From a virus, in the IMG/VR virus record IMGVR_UViG_3300025840_000195, positions 1 to 27,936 of that record: 27,936 nt of DNA; one strand, written 5' to 3'. Made by a program: the position numbers and the translations under genes. Positions within the stretch are counted from its first letter, which is position 1. The number at the start of each line of letters is the position of its first letter. The notes beneath the pieces were generated by a model, which was given only the letters and a program-made list of their open reading frames with translations, was not told the DNA's origin and did not search any database. Below are positions 6,711 to 11,987 of the stretch, in pieces.

Positions 6711-7433
6711 GTGCCGAGAATTAAAAAAATATCAGAATTTAAACCCTTAATTACTAATCTTGCACAGACATCTCATTATCAAGTCATGTTTGGTGGGTTG
6801 AATAATTATTTAAGTGGATATTTAAATGAAAGAGGAGTAAATACGAGATTTATTACAGAAGAATCTGGTTTATTATGTTCTTCTGCTTCCATTCCTGGTA
6901 GTTCATTAGCAACTGCGGATATTAATGGGAACTTTATGGGTATGCAAGAGAAGATGGCACATACCCGAATTTTTACTGAAATGCAATTAGAATTTTATGT
7001 TGATTCTGATTATAGAATGATTAAGTTTCTAGAGCACTGGATGGAATATATTGTAAGTGGGGGCGAATCACCATCTGCTGGTCCTGGATATTATTATCGA
7101 ATGCAGTTTCCAGAACAATATAAATGCGATCAGACAAAAATTATAAAATTTGATAGGAATGGAGATAAAGAATTGGAATATAAGTTCTTTAAGTTGTTTC
7201 CAAAAAATTTAACATCTATTCCAGTTTCTTATGGAACTTCTGATATATTAAAAGTTAGTGCTTCATTCGAATATGAACGTTATGTTTCTGGTAAATTAAC
7301 ATCGAAGAGTGTGAAAGATGGAACTAGTAATAATAGAGGATCTGTGAAAACTGAATCTATTCCTCTTGAAGTAATTCCATTTCAAGGACGACAAATAAGT
7401 GGAGTAGTTCTTCCAAATAATAATCTTGCTTAA
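6711..7433 (+). CDS. tail-tube-fold protein, probable gp54-like tube initiator
   Basis: The 240-residue product starts at GTG (MPRIKKISEFKPL). It has the tail-tube pattern HYQVMFGGLNNYL (17-29), CSSASIPGSSLATADINGNF (56-75), TEMQLEFYVDSDYRMIKFLE (89-108) and a late beta strand SASFEYERYVSG. These features are shared by the gp19/gp54/gp48 family, in which hydrophobic strands line the tube wall. The basic/polar tail beyond residue 200 and the place beside gp26 suggest gp54, the baseplate tail-tube initiator, rather than the major tube protein, but a gp19 paralogue cannot be excluded. GTG is the only plausible start: the upstream sequence has AGG nearby and the late box is 33 bases away. Confidence 0.75.
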   Translation: MPRIKKISEFKPLITNLAQTSHYQVMFGGLNNYLSGYLNERGVNTRFITEESGLLCSSASIPGSSLATADINGNFMGMQEKMAHTRIFTEMQLEFYVDSDYRMIKFLEHWMEYIVSGGESPSAGPGYYYRMQFPEQYKCDQTKIIKFDRNGDKELEYKFFKLFPKNLTSIPVSYGTSDILKVSASFEYERYVSGKLTSKSVKDGTSNNRGSVKTESIPLEVIPFQGRQISGVVLPNNNLA

Positions 7434-7474: not shown

Positions 7475-8194
7475 ATGCCTTTACCTAAAATTAATACTCC
7501 AATATATGAGTTGGAATTGCCTTCGACTAAAAAGAAAATTAGATACAGACCATTTTTAGTTAAGGAAGAAAAGATTCTAATTATTGCGATGGAATCTGAA
7601 GATCAAAAACAGATTACGACTGCTATTAAAACTGTAATCGGCAATTGTATTCTTTCTAGAGGTATTAAAGTAGAACAACTATCCACTTTTGATATTGAAT
7701 ATCTTTTCTTGAATATCAGAGGCAAATCTGTCGGAGAAGATGTTGAAGTATTGCTGACTTGTCCTGATGATGAAGAGACGCAAGTTTCTGTAGTTATTAA
7801 TCTCGATGATATTAAGGTTCAATCTGATAAAAATCATTCGAGAGATATTGTATTAGATGAAAATCTAACTATGAGAATGAAGTATCCTTCTCTAGATGAG
7901 TTCATTAAATCTAATTTTAGTTTTGATGGTAAGTTTGGTGTGGATGAGTCATTCCAACTAATTGCTTCTTCAGTAGAGCAAATTTATAATGAAGAAGAGT
8001 CATGGAATTCTTCTGATTTTAGTAAGAAGGAAATGCTTGATTTTATTGAGCAATTGAGTTCCAAACAATTTAAAGAAGTTGAGAATTTCTTTGAGACAAT
8101 GCCAAAACTTTCACATACTGTAAAACTAAAAAATCCAAATACTGGAGTCGAAAGTGATGTTGTATTGGAAGGTCTATCCAGTTTTTTCGCATAG
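7475..8194 (+). CDS. 26: gp26-like baseplate hub / tail assembly protein
   Basis: The 239-residue protein (T4 gp26: 208) begins MPLPKINTPIYELELPSTKK. It has the conserved FDIEYLFLNIRGKSVGE block (residues 72-88), a cysteine-containing strand (LLTCPDDEE) and YPSLDEFIKSNF, the signature of the T4_baseplate family. In T4 gp26 helps assemble the central hub. The last codons read AGT TTT TTC GCA TAG. T TTT TTC is a canonical -1 slippery heptamer in the correct register, followed after six bases by a 10-bp hairpin, so a fraction of ribosomes may continue into the next ORF (see findings). That arrangement would make this the G-like half of a tail-assembly chaperone pair. Confidence 0.87.
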   Translation: MPLPKINTPIYELELPSTKKKIRYRPFLVKEEKILIIAMESEDQKQITTAIKTVIGNCILSRGIKVEQLSTFDIEYLFLNIRGKSVGEDVEVLLTCPDDEETQVSVVINLDDIKVQSDKNHSRDIVLDENLTMRMKYPSLDEFIKSNFSFDGKFGVDESFQLIASSVEQIYNEEESWNSSDFSKKEMLDFIEQLSSKQFKEVENFFETMPKLSHTVKLKNPNTGVESDVVLEGLSSFFA

Positions 8195-8223
8195 GTATGG
8201 CGCACACTGACCTTGCGTCATAC
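8182..8223 (+). promoter_or_regulatory. candidate programmed -1 frameshift signal
   Basis: The slippery heptamer T TTT TTC spans 8182-8188 in the gp26 frame. A spacer of six bases follows (8189-8194, including the gp26 stop). Then comes a hairpin pairing 8195-8204 with 8214-8223, ten pairs with one G-U, around a 9-base loop. Slipping back one base continues as Arg-Ile-Gly-Met into the 60-aa ORF without meeting a stop. All elements are directly visible; activity is inferred. Confidence 0.75.
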
Positions 8224-8379
8224 TACCAAATAACATTTGCCCTGATGCAGCATCATAAATATAGCTTAACAGAGTTAGAAAATATGTTACCTTGGGAAAA
8301 GGACATTTACCTCACTTTATTAGAGCAATATATTGAAGAAGAAAAATTAAAACAGCAGCAAAACAGTGGTAACCAATAA
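8197..8379 (+). CDS. 60-aa ORF, likely T-like part of a frameshifted tail chaperone
   Basis: The 60 residues (MAHTDLASYYQITFALMQHH...) are helical, with the pattern YSLTELENMLPWEKDIYLTLLEQ and a charged, glutamine-rich tail. Helical segments with W-x(3)-Y near the end are common in small tail-assembly proteins translated by frameshift. As an independent gene it has a poor start: the only AGG lies one base from the ATG. In the -1 frame it is continuous with gp26 and would give a fusion of about 301 residues. It sits in the slot of T4 gene 51 (hub assembly catalyst, 249 residues), but I see no clear likeness. It overlaps the next gene by 14 bases. Confidence 0.75.
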   Translation: MAHTDLASYYQITFALMQHHKYSLTELENMLPWEKDIYLTLLEQYIEEEKLKQQQNSGNQ

Positions 8380-10267
8380 ATCTTACAGAGCACCACAATT
8401 AAATATGAGGAGAAGTAAAATTTCTCCTAGTAAATTTTCTAATACTAAGGTAAATCCTTATACGGGAGAGTACTTATCTGCTGGAGAGAGAAAATTATTA
8501 TTTCAAAAAAGAATTGTAAGTTCTGCAAATGTTTTTAAGAAATTAGGAGCACTTGTAAGAACACCATCTAAAATCATACCATCTAAAAATGTTTTTAAGA
8601 AATCAGAAGCACTTATAAATCCAAAGACATCCTCAATTGCCTCTGATAATAAACCAAAAGATAAAAATGATATTAAATCCTTAGAAAAAAGATTTTCTGG
8701 TTTAGAAAAAGGATTTTCTGGTTTAGAAAAAAATGTTTATTCCATATCAAAAGCATCAGATAATAAATCTGATAATAAAATTTTATCTAAAAGAGTTTTT
8801 GTATTAGAAAATGATGTTTCTTTTCTGGCAAAGACATTAAATAAGGAAGCAGAACTTGAGAAGAAGGCACAGAAACAATATGAAAAAGATGTAGAAAAAG
8901 TAGAAGAAAAGAAACTTAGAAGTGGTGAAGAGAAAAAATTAGAGAAAAAAATAACCAAAGGACTAATTTCTCCAGTAAAAGCAGTAGGAAAAAAAGCAGG
9001 AGGAGTTCTTGGAACCTTGATGGAACTCTTCATGACTTTGCTTGGAGGGTGGTTAACAAATCAAGGATTAGAGGCAATAAAAGCAAATGCAGAAGGTAAT
9101 ATTGATAAATTAGAAGAAATTAAAAAAAATGTTACAGAAACTCTTGCAACTGTTGGTGGAATATTTGCATTATTGAGTGGTGGTCTTCTTGTTATTGGTG
9201 CTATTGTTAAGTCATTAGCAAAAAGAATTGCTAAGTTTCTTTGGAGAAAAACATTTGGAAGAATTTTAAATCCTAAACCACCAAAGACAACACCAAAACC
9301 AACGAATCAAAAACCAAACCCAACAGGCACTATAAAACCTTCGACCCCAACACCAAAATCTGGATCTCTCAAAGGAGGGGGAAGTGCTCAGGCACCAAGA
9401 GCAGGAGCAGGAAACTCTGGTCTATTAGACCGTTATGGGAAACCATTAAAGAGTTCACCATTGGACGCATATAGAGGATCAGGATCTTCACCAGCAAGAG
9501 CACCAAAAATTCCTCAACCTAAACCTGTAATTTCAAAAACTCCTAAATTTAAAGGATTTAAAGGTATGAGAGGTGGAATTGCTGGAATTGCCCTTGGATT
9601 GGGACTTTCATTATTCGAAACACAAATAGTAGATACACTTGGATCTTTTTACGGTAAATTTGGTGTTGGATTTCGTTCAATGAAAGATTCTGAAATATTA
9701 AGTGAAATGGATTCTTTAGAAAAAAAAGTAATTTCTTTAGATATTGAGAATAAACCTTGGAATGGAATTATTGCAGAATCACTAATTAATGAATCATCTA
9801 TTTACTTTAGAGAAGCAAAAAGAAGAGAATTGATTAAAGTTTCTGAAGATGGATCTGAATTTTTATATACAGAAAAAGGAATAAAAGCAAAAAATCCAAA
9901 CAAATCTGCGAGAGATAGTCTTAGTGCTGAAGATAAAAAAGTTACACCGGGAACTTTACCTCCTTCAGCAGCAGTAACACCAACACCAGCAGTAACAACA
10001 CCAACACCAGCAGTAACAACACCAGTACCAGGAGAAATGCCTGCGGCACAAATTTCTTCTCCATCTTCTTCAATGCCAGCACCAGGGCCAGTATCTAGTG
10101 CTGGAAATACAACCGTAATTTATAAGAAAGTTGGAGGTTCTGGAGGACAAATGCAGGGACAACCACTTAAGAGTGGATCTGCAACTGATGTTCCATTGAT
10201 TGCTTCGGCAGATCCAAGTAATTTCTATACAATGTATTCTCAACTTCTCTATAATGTGGTAGGTTAA
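8366..10267 (+). CDS. large tail protein, probable tape measure (gp29-like)
   Basis: The 633-residue protein (T4 gp29 tape measure: 590) begins at GTG 8366; an ATG at 8405 is an alternative, and neither has a clear Shine-Dalgarno sequence. It has a coiled-coil region at about 104-195 with LEK heptads and hydrophobic segments at 212-230 and 259-283. Basic patches follow, then a Pro/Thr-rich linker (302-332), a Gly-rich hydrophobic stretch (GIAGIALGLGLSLFETQ) and a second Thr/Pro linker near 540-556. This alternation of coiled coil and hydrophobic segments is typical of tape measures. The location, directly after the putative frameshifted chaperone, is where tape measures sit in other tailed phages. 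Internal 7-residue and 28-bp repeats suggest length variation. The call is an inference from architecture and context. Confidence 0.6.
   Translation: MVTNKSYRAPQLNMRRSKISPSKFSNTKVNPYTGEYLSAGERKLLFQKRIVSSANVFKKLGALVRTPSKIIPSKNVFKKSEALINPKTSSIASDNKPKDKNDIKSLEKRFSGLEKGFSGLEKNVYSISKASDNKSDNKILSKRVFVLENDVSFLAKTLNKEAELEKKAQKQYEKDVEKVEEKKLRSGEEKKLEKKITKGLISPVKAVGKKAGGVLGTLMELFMTLLGGWLTNQGLEAIKANAEGNIDKLEEIKKNVTETLATVGGIFALLSGGLLVIGAIVKSLAKRIAKFLWRKTFGRILNPKPPKTTPKPTNQKPNPTGTIKPSTPTPKSGSLKGGGSAQAPRAGAGNSGLLDRYGKPLKSSPLDAYRGSGSSPARAPKIPQPKPVISKTPKFKGFKGMRGGIAGIALGLGLSLFETQIVDTLGSFYGKFGVGFRSMKDSEILSEMDSLEKKVISLDIENKPWNGIIAESLINESSIYFREAKRRELIKVSEDGSEFLYTEKGIKAKNPNKSARDSLSAEDKKVTPGTLPPSAAVTPTPAVTTPTPAVTTPVPGEMPAAQISSPSSSMPAPGPVSSAGNTTVIYKKVGGSGGQMQGQPLKSGSATDVPLIASADPSNFYTMYSQLLYNVVG
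8527..8614 (+). repeat. 28-bp imperfect direct repeat in the tape-measure-like gene
   Basis: The 28 bases at 8527-8554 recur at 8587-8614 with two mismatches, giving NVFKKLGAL and NVFKKSEAL. The copies start 60 bases apart, a whole number of codons, so the duplication preserves the frame. Confidence 0.8.
8681..8735 (+). repeat. 21-bp tandem repeat (LEKxFSG heptads)
   Basis: Units at 8681-8701 and 8702-8722 differ at one base, and the start of a third copy follows from 8723. Each encodes one coiled-coil heptad, LEKRFSG then LEKGFSG then LEKNVYS. Confidence 0.85.
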
Positions 10268-10268
10268 G

Positions 10269-11987
10269 ATGGCAGTAGCAGCAGTAGCAGCAGGAGCACT
10301 TAGAATAGGTTCAATGTTTGCCAGAGGTGCTGGTTCAGTTCTTTCTGGTGGAGCAAGGGGAGTTGGTAGAAGTGGAGGAATGCTTCGTAGAGCAGTTCTC
10401 AAAAAGACTAAAGTAAAGAGAGAAAATATTGCAAGAAGCAGAAGTTTTAATAAAAAACTTATAGAGAGAAATAAGAGAAGACAAAAAGAAAAAACTATAG
10501 AAACTTTTAGTATAAAAAAACCTAGACTTGGATCAATTCCGGGTAAAAGTTTTTTTGAGAAAATTTTAGATTTTATTGGAACTTTATTTCTTGGGTGGTT
10601 ATTTAATAACCTTCCAAAAATTATAAAGTTTGTTGAAGATTTAAAAAAGAGAATAAATCTTCTTATTGATAGTTTAAAAAGTTTTGTTGAGAATGTTGGA
10701 AAATGGTTTACGGCATTAAAAGATAATATTGTTGCACGATGGGAAAATATAAAAAGTTTTGATTTTACGGATCAATCTGGAAAAATTAAAAAGTCAATGG
10801 ATGATTTGGAGAAAGCATTTATAGGAATGTCAAATGATTTTGATTCTGCAAAAAGGGCAATGCTTGATGAAATGGGAGAAGATTCTGGTGGAGGGAGTTA
10901 CACTCCAGGAGAAGTGCCTGAAGAAGTATCATCTGATACTGAATTTTCAACAGCAGTTACTAATCTTGCAAAAAAATATGATTTAAATGAAGATGATCTA
11001 TATGCTGTAATGAGTTTTGAGACTGGTGGCACTTTCGATCCAGCAAAGAAAAACATGGCCGGTTCTGGTGCTACAGGTTTGATTCAATTCACGAATTCCA
11101 CGGCAAGAGGATTAGGAACTACAACTGAAGCACTTGCAAGGATGTCGAGAACAGAGCAATTAAAGTATGTTGATAAGCATTTTTCGAATAAAGGAATTCA
11201 AGGTGGAAATATTGAGGACCTTTATATGTCAATTTTATTTCCAGCTGCTGTAGGTAAACCCAGCAATTTTGTTCTTTTTGGTAGAGGAGCAATTGCTGGA
11301 TATGGACCTGGATCTAGAGCATATTCACAAAACAGAGGATTGGATAGAAATAATGATGGAAGTGTTACTAAAGCAGAGGCTTCTGCTGCAGCAAGAGCAC
11401 ATAAAAAAGGTGGTAGTGGTGGAAGATATGGTGGTGGGGGAAATGTTGTAGAATATATTACAGGAGATAGAAGGCACCCAAACTTTGAATATAGTGGTCA
11501 TGGAAGAGCATATAATTACCATGATCATATTGCTTTTAGAACTATACAAGAAAAAGAGAGAGCAAAGGCAGCATTACGTGCAGCAGGAATAAAAATAGGT
11601 AGTGAGTATATTGGGAGAGAAAATGATCCTGGATGGCACGGAGCAAACTTGGCAATTGATATTCCTGGAGGACAGTGGGGTGGTAGTGGTGCAATCGGAC
11701 AACGAGAATATAATGGTTCTGCAAGAGTAAGGCAAGTATTAACAAATGCTGGATTTGGTGGTGCAGGATTAGGACATGGATCAAGTGCAATCTCTCGATC
11801 TCCTGGTGTAATGCCTGATATTGGATATTCAAAAGGACCACAAAATACAATCCTAATTATAGAAGAAGAAGCACCACCACCAATGATGATGGGTCAATCT
11901 GGAGGATCTTCTCCAATTATTGTTATGGGTGCCTCGTTAAATAGTATTATGAAAAGAAAATTACTAACAGATTTAGCATATACTTAA
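10269..11987 (+). CDS. tail protein with lytic transglycosylase domain
   Basis: This 572-residue protein has several parts. The N-terminus is basic and glycine/alanine-rich, and a hydrophobic amphipathic stretch (95-140) is followed by a helical region. An SLT-type lysozyme/lytic transglycosylase domain at about 225-340 has catalytic Glu251 in MSFETGGTFDP and the GATGLIQFT motif. A calcium-loop-like DRNNDGSVTKAE lies at 359-370. A C-terminal domain (about 393-505) has HDH (418-420) and HGANLAIDIPGG (457-468), which resembles a peptidase or sugar-binding fold I cannot name. It should cut peptidoglycan during DNA injection, the role gp5 plays in T4; the gp5 equivalent here shows no lysozyme motifs. 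It lies between the tape measure and gp27. The catalytic fold is well supported; the C-terminal function is unknown. Confidence 0.8.
   Translation: MAVAAVAAGALRIGSMFARGAGSVLSGGARGVGRSGGMLRRAVLKKTKVKRENIARSRSFNKKLIERNKRRQKEKTIETFSIKKPRLGSIPGKSFFEKILDFIGTLFLGWLFNNLPKIIKFVEDLKKRINLLIDSLKSFVENVGKWFTALKDNIVARWENIKSFDFTDQSGKIKKSMDDLEKAFIGMSNDFDSAKRAMLDEMGEDSGGGSYTPGEVPEEVSSDTEFSTAVTNLAKKYDLNEDDLYAVMSFETGGTFDPAKKNMAGSGATGLIQFTNSTARGLGTTTEALARMSRTEQLKYVDKHFSNKGIQGGNIEDLYMSILFPAAVGKPSNFVLFGRGAIAGYGPGSRAYSQNRGLDRNNDGSVTKAEASAAARAHKKGGSGGRYGGGGNVVEYITGDRRHPNFEYSGHGRAYNYHDHIAFRTIQEKERAKAALRAAGIKIGSEYIGRENDPGWHGANLAIDIPGGQWGGSGAIGQREYNGSARVRQVLTNAGFGGAGLGHGSSAISRSPGVMPDIGYSKGPQNTILIIEEEAPPPMMMGQSGGSSPIIVMGASLNSIMKRKLLTDLAYT

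Follow-up and report, generated by a model that had tools for sequence, protein, structure and literature searches.

The gp26 locus of a marine, S-SKS1-like T4-type cyanophage very probably carries a programmed −1 frameshift (probability of about 0.93, judged from comparison of sequences), by which a single gene would make a short tail assembly chaperone (TAC), TAC-N, of 239 aa, and a long form, TAC-NC, of 301 aa. The window, that is, the whole stretch of DNA analysed, is an IMG/VR virus fragment of 27.9 kb whose gp26-gp51 DNA is 96.8% identical to that of Synechococcus phage S-SKS1. The initial annotation had proposed a −1 slip on gp26 giving a long form like that of the lambda G/GT proteins, and the comparative evidence strongly supports it, because the heptamer, its codon choice, the covariation in the hairpin, the conservation of the frame, the TAC-like N-terminal fold and the in-frame fusion found in T4 gp51 all point to it. 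The features of the region are as follows.

6711-7433, plus strand: tail-tube-family gene directly upstream of gp26 (phrog_45 tail tube, 5.8e-44; PF23849 Phage_TTP_2, 6.2e-22).
7475-8194, plus strand: gp26, or TAC-N, the 239-aa zero-frame product (PF12322, 4.3e-75; phrog_150, 1.6e-81; N-terminal fold).
7475-8379, plus strand: predicted frameshift product TAC-NC, 301 aa (7475-8188 joined to 8188-8379, computed translation).
8167-8172, plus strand: possible Shine-Dalgarno-like stimulator GGAAGG, ending 9 nt before the heptamer (Glu codon bias, anti-SD pairing).
8182-8188, plus strand: slippery heptamer T TTT TTC, in the gp26 register.
8188-8379, plus strand: segment read in the −1 frame as TAC-C, namely R I G and the 60-aa ORF that records of relatives call gp51 (phrog_634, C-terminal end of phrog_150, alignment with T4 gp51).
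8194-8224, plus strand: putative stimulatory hairpin, stem 8194-8204 with 8214-8224, 11 pairs and a 9-nt loop, starting 5 nt past the heptamer.
8366-10267, plus strand: candidate tape-measure gene, 633 aa, with a GTG start overlapping the end of TAC-C (position and coiled/hydrophobic composition).

The 3' end of gp26 reads AGT TTT TTC GCA TAG, and this direct reading bears out the T TTT TTC first annotated in the gp26 frame, with a single sense codon (GCA) between the heptamer and the stop. A −1 slip leads into the codons CGC ATA GGT ATG (R I G M); from the slip, this frame is open for 63 codons, reaching 8379, 185 nt beyond the gp26 stop; the opening into the 60-aa ORF, with a fusion of about 301 residues, was likewise correctly anticipated, the translation being 301 aa long. 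A scan of all ORFs in the window with a minimum length of 100 aa found the gp26 site to be the only in-register slippery heptamer of the A/U type with a long −1 extension. Downstream, the annotated ten-pair hairpin with one G-U, formed by GTATGGCGCA (8195-8204) and TGCGTCATAC (8214-8223), is present and is extended to 11 pairs by the outer G8194-U8224. Its minimum free energy is −15.0 kcal/mol, with a z of −3.7 against dinucleotide shuffles.

A search of IMG/VR and annotated phage records gave 423 sequences with a gp26 match, corresponding to 297 distinct junctions. The heptamer U-UUU-UUN is in register at the gp26 end in 294/297 of these junctions, the second ORF lies in the −1 frame in 296/297 and the seventh base is C in 285/297, although, given relatedness and metagenome redundancy, these counts do not represent independent events. 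Moreover, Phe-Phe is written TTT TTC in 283/288 cases at the slip site versus 11/286 elsewhere in gp26; simple conservation of the protein is therefore ruled out, because this codon choice is specific to the slip site. A heptamer present by chance is excluded by the same codon choice together with the retention in 294/297 junctions. The heptamer persists down to 23-39% protein identity, its distant carriers being Aeromonas phage Aeh1 and phages of Stenotrophomonas, Ochrobactrum, Sinorhizobium, Agrobacterium and Vibrio.

The departures from this pattern are few. In the Vibrio phages K475 and BX-1 (the latter classed as Ackermannviridae), TTTTTT(C) is replaced by CTTTTT or GTTTTT, and the second ORF is still in the −1 frame. 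One junction (L109) is without the heptamer; about 100 nt of its gp26 3' end are apparently gone in comparison with its near relative L122, and it appears to be a deletion or an assembly fault. Finally, S-SCSM1 (locus L163, 2472-2530) has an 11-nt insertion just past the gp26 stop that places gp51 in the +1/−2 frame; the heptamer is intact, but the −1 frame closes after four codons. Either the insertion is an error of sequencing, or this phage relies on a −2/+1 slip or on reinitiation.

Folding of the region past the heptamer is also unusually stable, with a mean z of −3.25 and 217/289 aligned junctions below −2, compared with a mean of −0.22 and 12/120 below −2 for random gp26 windows. For 52 diverse sequences from the clade to which the window belongs, 94.9% of the cells of the 11 pairs are paired, against 24-45% for slid controls. 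One pair (alignment columns 21/35) switches between U-A, found in 25 of these sequences, and G-C, found in 24, with A-U in one; 25 double changes were counted for it. A tree from which the junction was left out gives minima of 12 and 14 changes for the two sides of this pair, and among six independent contrasts on supported branches an average of 5.7 go in the same direction and 0 in the opposite one (sign test, p 0.03). This double-sided change involves only 1 of the 11 pairs, the others being invariant or variable on one side. In more divergent cyanophages this position is occupied by unrelated stems, for example a 14-pair stem in S-PM2 and GCCCTC/GAGGGC in L320 and L336. As a universal element the hairpin is rejected, about one-quarter of the junctions missing a z of −2 and the ten most distant relatives (<40% identity) showing no special structure (mean z about −0.5). 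Because of these ten relatives, the hairpin looks like an elaboration of the cyanophages. The conservation of heptamer and hairpin in relatives, which had been named beforehand as the point on which the reading could fall, has thus been examined, and the reading was not refuted.

A third signal is suggested by a conserved Glu-Gly about 9 nt upstream of the heptamer, with the family consensus GGAGGG/TGAGGG, compared with which the GGAAGG of the window is weaker. At this Glu, GAG is used in 197/271 sequences (73%) versus 29% at other gp26 Glu codons; the column ranks first of 27 for GAG (0.73, the runner-up being 0.66), and changes between GAA and GAG number at least 30 on the tree. Also, the anti-SD pairing at the element has a mean of −7.2 kcal/mol versus −5.5 kcal/mol in synonymous shuffles. 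These values are suggestive of a Shine-Dalgarno-like element.

The ORF that begins at 8197 could also be read as a gene of its own, its ATG being located two bases past the gp26 stop (TAG GT ATG). However, the poor start signal initially ascribed to it is confirmed, since the sequence ...CGCATAGGT ATG offers no usable Shine-Dalgarno, the AGG lying just 1 nt from the ATG. Among relatives, ATG is found at the gp51 start codon in 217/288, with mostly Leu in the remainder, and 32/288 have no ATG at all in the first 16 codons. Frameshifting would then be the conserved route, because the start codon is often lost and the slip site almost never. The residues between the slip and the ATG, R-I/V-A/S/G, also look conserved.

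The possibility that frameshifting is accompanied by some free gp51, made by reinitiation in the phages that bear the ATG, is a doubtful one: many relatives have the ATG two bases past the stop, but it is not preceded by a Shine-Dalgarno at usable spacing, and we know of no role for free TAC-C in other phages. Far less probable is a scheme with no frameshift, in which ribosomes would terminate at the gp26 stop and reinitiate at ATG 8197 to make the 60-aa gp51 by itself. The TAG GT ATG arrangement of the window, the ATG at that codon in most relatives and the database records that annotate a gp51 gene agree with this scheme; nonetheless, the ATG is unconserved while the heptamer is kept, the R-I/V-A/S/G residues look conserved although they precede the ATG, reinitiation predicts neither the Phe-Phe codon choice nor the constraint on the −1 frame, and T4 has the domain fused. 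Independent initiation as the sole route to gp51 is thus disfavoured, the ATG being gone in about one-quarter of relatives. Slippage of RNA polymerase on the U6 run, instead of the ribosome, is extremely improbable: a run of six T is present, but six is short for transcriptional slippage, the covarying hairpin at ribosomal spacing and the C at the seventh base fit the ribosome instead, and the register of the heptamer would not be needed.

A −1 frameshift is also consistent with the organization of the homologous proteins of T4. The PF12322 (T4_baseplate) model matches the window gp26 with 252.6 bits, above its curated cut-off of 24.5, and it matches both T4 proteins, gp26 with 215.6 bits and gp51 with 177.5 bits. 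The TAC-C segment of the window matches phrog_634 (1e-26) and the C-terminal end of phrog_150 (positions 239-278), and the same domain is the extra C-terminal domain carried by T4 gp51 (phrog_634, phrog_150 239-278). Moreover, the alignment of T4 gp51 with the predicted 301-aa product is colinear and free of gaps over the slip site (VFKLLVNPDEIFTFYQ with FFRIGMAHTDLASYYQ). In T4, gp26 and gp51 are two genes on opposite strands and a frameshift is unneeded, whereas in the cyanophage they form one locus.

In the AlphaFold model of gp26 (pLDDT 86.5), the N-terminal domain resembles known chaperones. The best three of 650 chains aligned with VIA-align 2 were 2ob9 (Z 7.9), which is the HK97 tail assembly chaperone, and 3fgx (7.7) and yqbN 3klu (7.1), which we take to be TAC structures; all three cover residues 1-96 of gp26, although a Z below 8 can reflect a common arrangement. 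Foldseek matches to TACs had E values of 1.4 or worse, which are not significant. A TAC-like N-terminal domain is therefore taken as supporting evidence only.

Regarding known systems, the lambda G/GT genes slip on GGGAAAG, in contrast with the U-rich heptamer and strong downstream hairpin of the cyanophage, and no sequence similarity between the two loci is claimed. The arrangement resembles that of E. coli dnaX, where a Shine-Dalgarno-like element about 10 nt upstream and a stem-loop about 6 nt downstream flank the slippery heptamer. The cyanophage stem-loop, with 11 pairs, one of them covarying, starts 5 nt past the heptamer and so falls within 5-8 nt; however, the heptamer is AAAAAAG in dnaX and UUUUUUC here, the genes are unrelated and the Shine-Dalgarno-like part of the window is weak and putative. 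The TAC genes of T4-like phages were reportedly identified by Vladimirov, Gautam and Davidson (Virology 2022), whose abstract is said to describe frameshifting as apparently conserved in several groups of T4-like phages, with the two forms encoded in T4 by genes 26 and 51. As that study is represented in papers that cite it, the present locus belongs to the same gene family, with gp26 as TAC-N and the C-terminal domain of gp51 as TAC-C, and, according to one citing paper, in some T4-like phages the short form instead has its own gene and the long form is encoded by a fused one. Poly-T sequences are cited as known −1 signals in T4-like TAC-N genes in a passage of another paper (PMC12846349). 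The same passage describes for Vandenendeviridae and Andersonviridae a conserved poly-T −1 site, shared with our locus, at the 3' end of TAC-N and ahead of the tape measure; its motif there is GTTTTT, which the slip motif of K475 and BX-1 resembles, and the passage itself makes no mention of a hairpin.

As far as the kind of device is concerned, the statement in the initial annotation that no such report was known for gp26 is consequently not upheld. On the cyanophage site, its hairpin or its upstream element we found no paper, Vladimirov et al. being considered through the papers that cite it. As far as checked, what is new is the conservation across cyanophages, the covarying hairpin, the possible Shine-Dalgarno-like element and the S-SCSM1 exception.

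Based on these data, gene 26 of an S-SKS1-like cyanophage would encode the short chaperone TAC-N, and U-UUU-UUC would be the point at which a fraction of the ribosomes shift back by one base, an event favoured by the hairpin that starts 5-6 nt downstream and perhaps also by the Shine-Dalgarno-like stretch about 9 nt upstream. The slipped ribosomes would pass the stop of gp26 and continue in the −1 frame as far as 8379, giving TAC-NC, in which a gp51-like C-terminal domain is added to gp26. On the model of lambda gpG/gpGT, both forms would coat the tape measure protein before the assembly of the tail tube. We infer the slippage, its efficiency and the binding to the tape measure. Digestion of TAC-NC with trypsin is predicted to yield the frameshift-specific peptide NPNTGVESDVVLEGLSSFFR (from the window sequence), whereas the C-terminal peptide of the zero-frame product would end in SSFFA; IGMAHTDLASYYQITFALMQHHK is a TAC-NC peptide that would not be expected from separate initiation at the Met.

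The natural candidate for the tape measure, by position and make-up, is the ORF at 8366, which showed no significant match in PHROG or NCBIfam and weak, below cut-off matches in Pfam. It is followed by another long ORF (10269-11987) with an SLT/lysozyme-like domain. In S-PM2 and Syn19, gp51 is followed by just one ORF, of about 1170-1550 aa; because of this single ORF, the tape-measure region may be split in the window phage. Also, positions 8254-8261 of the window, inside the TAC-C coding sequence and some 105 nt upstream of the ORF at 8366, read CATAAATA, which matches the late promoter NATAAATA of S-PM2 (PMC2984593). A motif of this type occurs at +62 from the gp26 stop in 269/289 junctions, with near-invariant synonymous sites (CAT in 233/234, AAA in 232/233), and it may be an embedded late promoter for the downstream tail gene.

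In most of the cyanophage records examined, gp26 appears as a "baseplate hub" gene and gp51 as a separate "baseplate hub assembly catalyst" gene, or the second one is unannotated. The TAC-C/gp51 ORF is unannotated, for example, in the records of S-CAM4, S-WAM1 and S-PRM1, possibly because some records have no start codon nearby. Because the evidence points to one frameshifted gp26/gp51 locus, hundreds of cyanophage annotations would have to be corrected. Moreover, T4 gp51, which PMC3004832 presents as a hub assembly protein, essential and of unknown function, would be the long chaperone form made without frameshifting. A broader scheme, which we propose tentatively and regard as possible though not probable, is that the cyanophages have a three-part dnaX-like cassette (Shine-Dalgarno-like element, U6C heptamer and hairpin) in which the slip site and spacing are fixed and the hairpins are replaced by unrelated ones from clade to clade, at least one phage (S-SCSM1) having moved to a −2 or +1 slip, and that, together with the two-gene split of T4, these form a series of ways to set one protein ratio. 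The cyanophage series would offer a way to test how the strength of the hairpin and the slip site set the ratio of the short to the long form.
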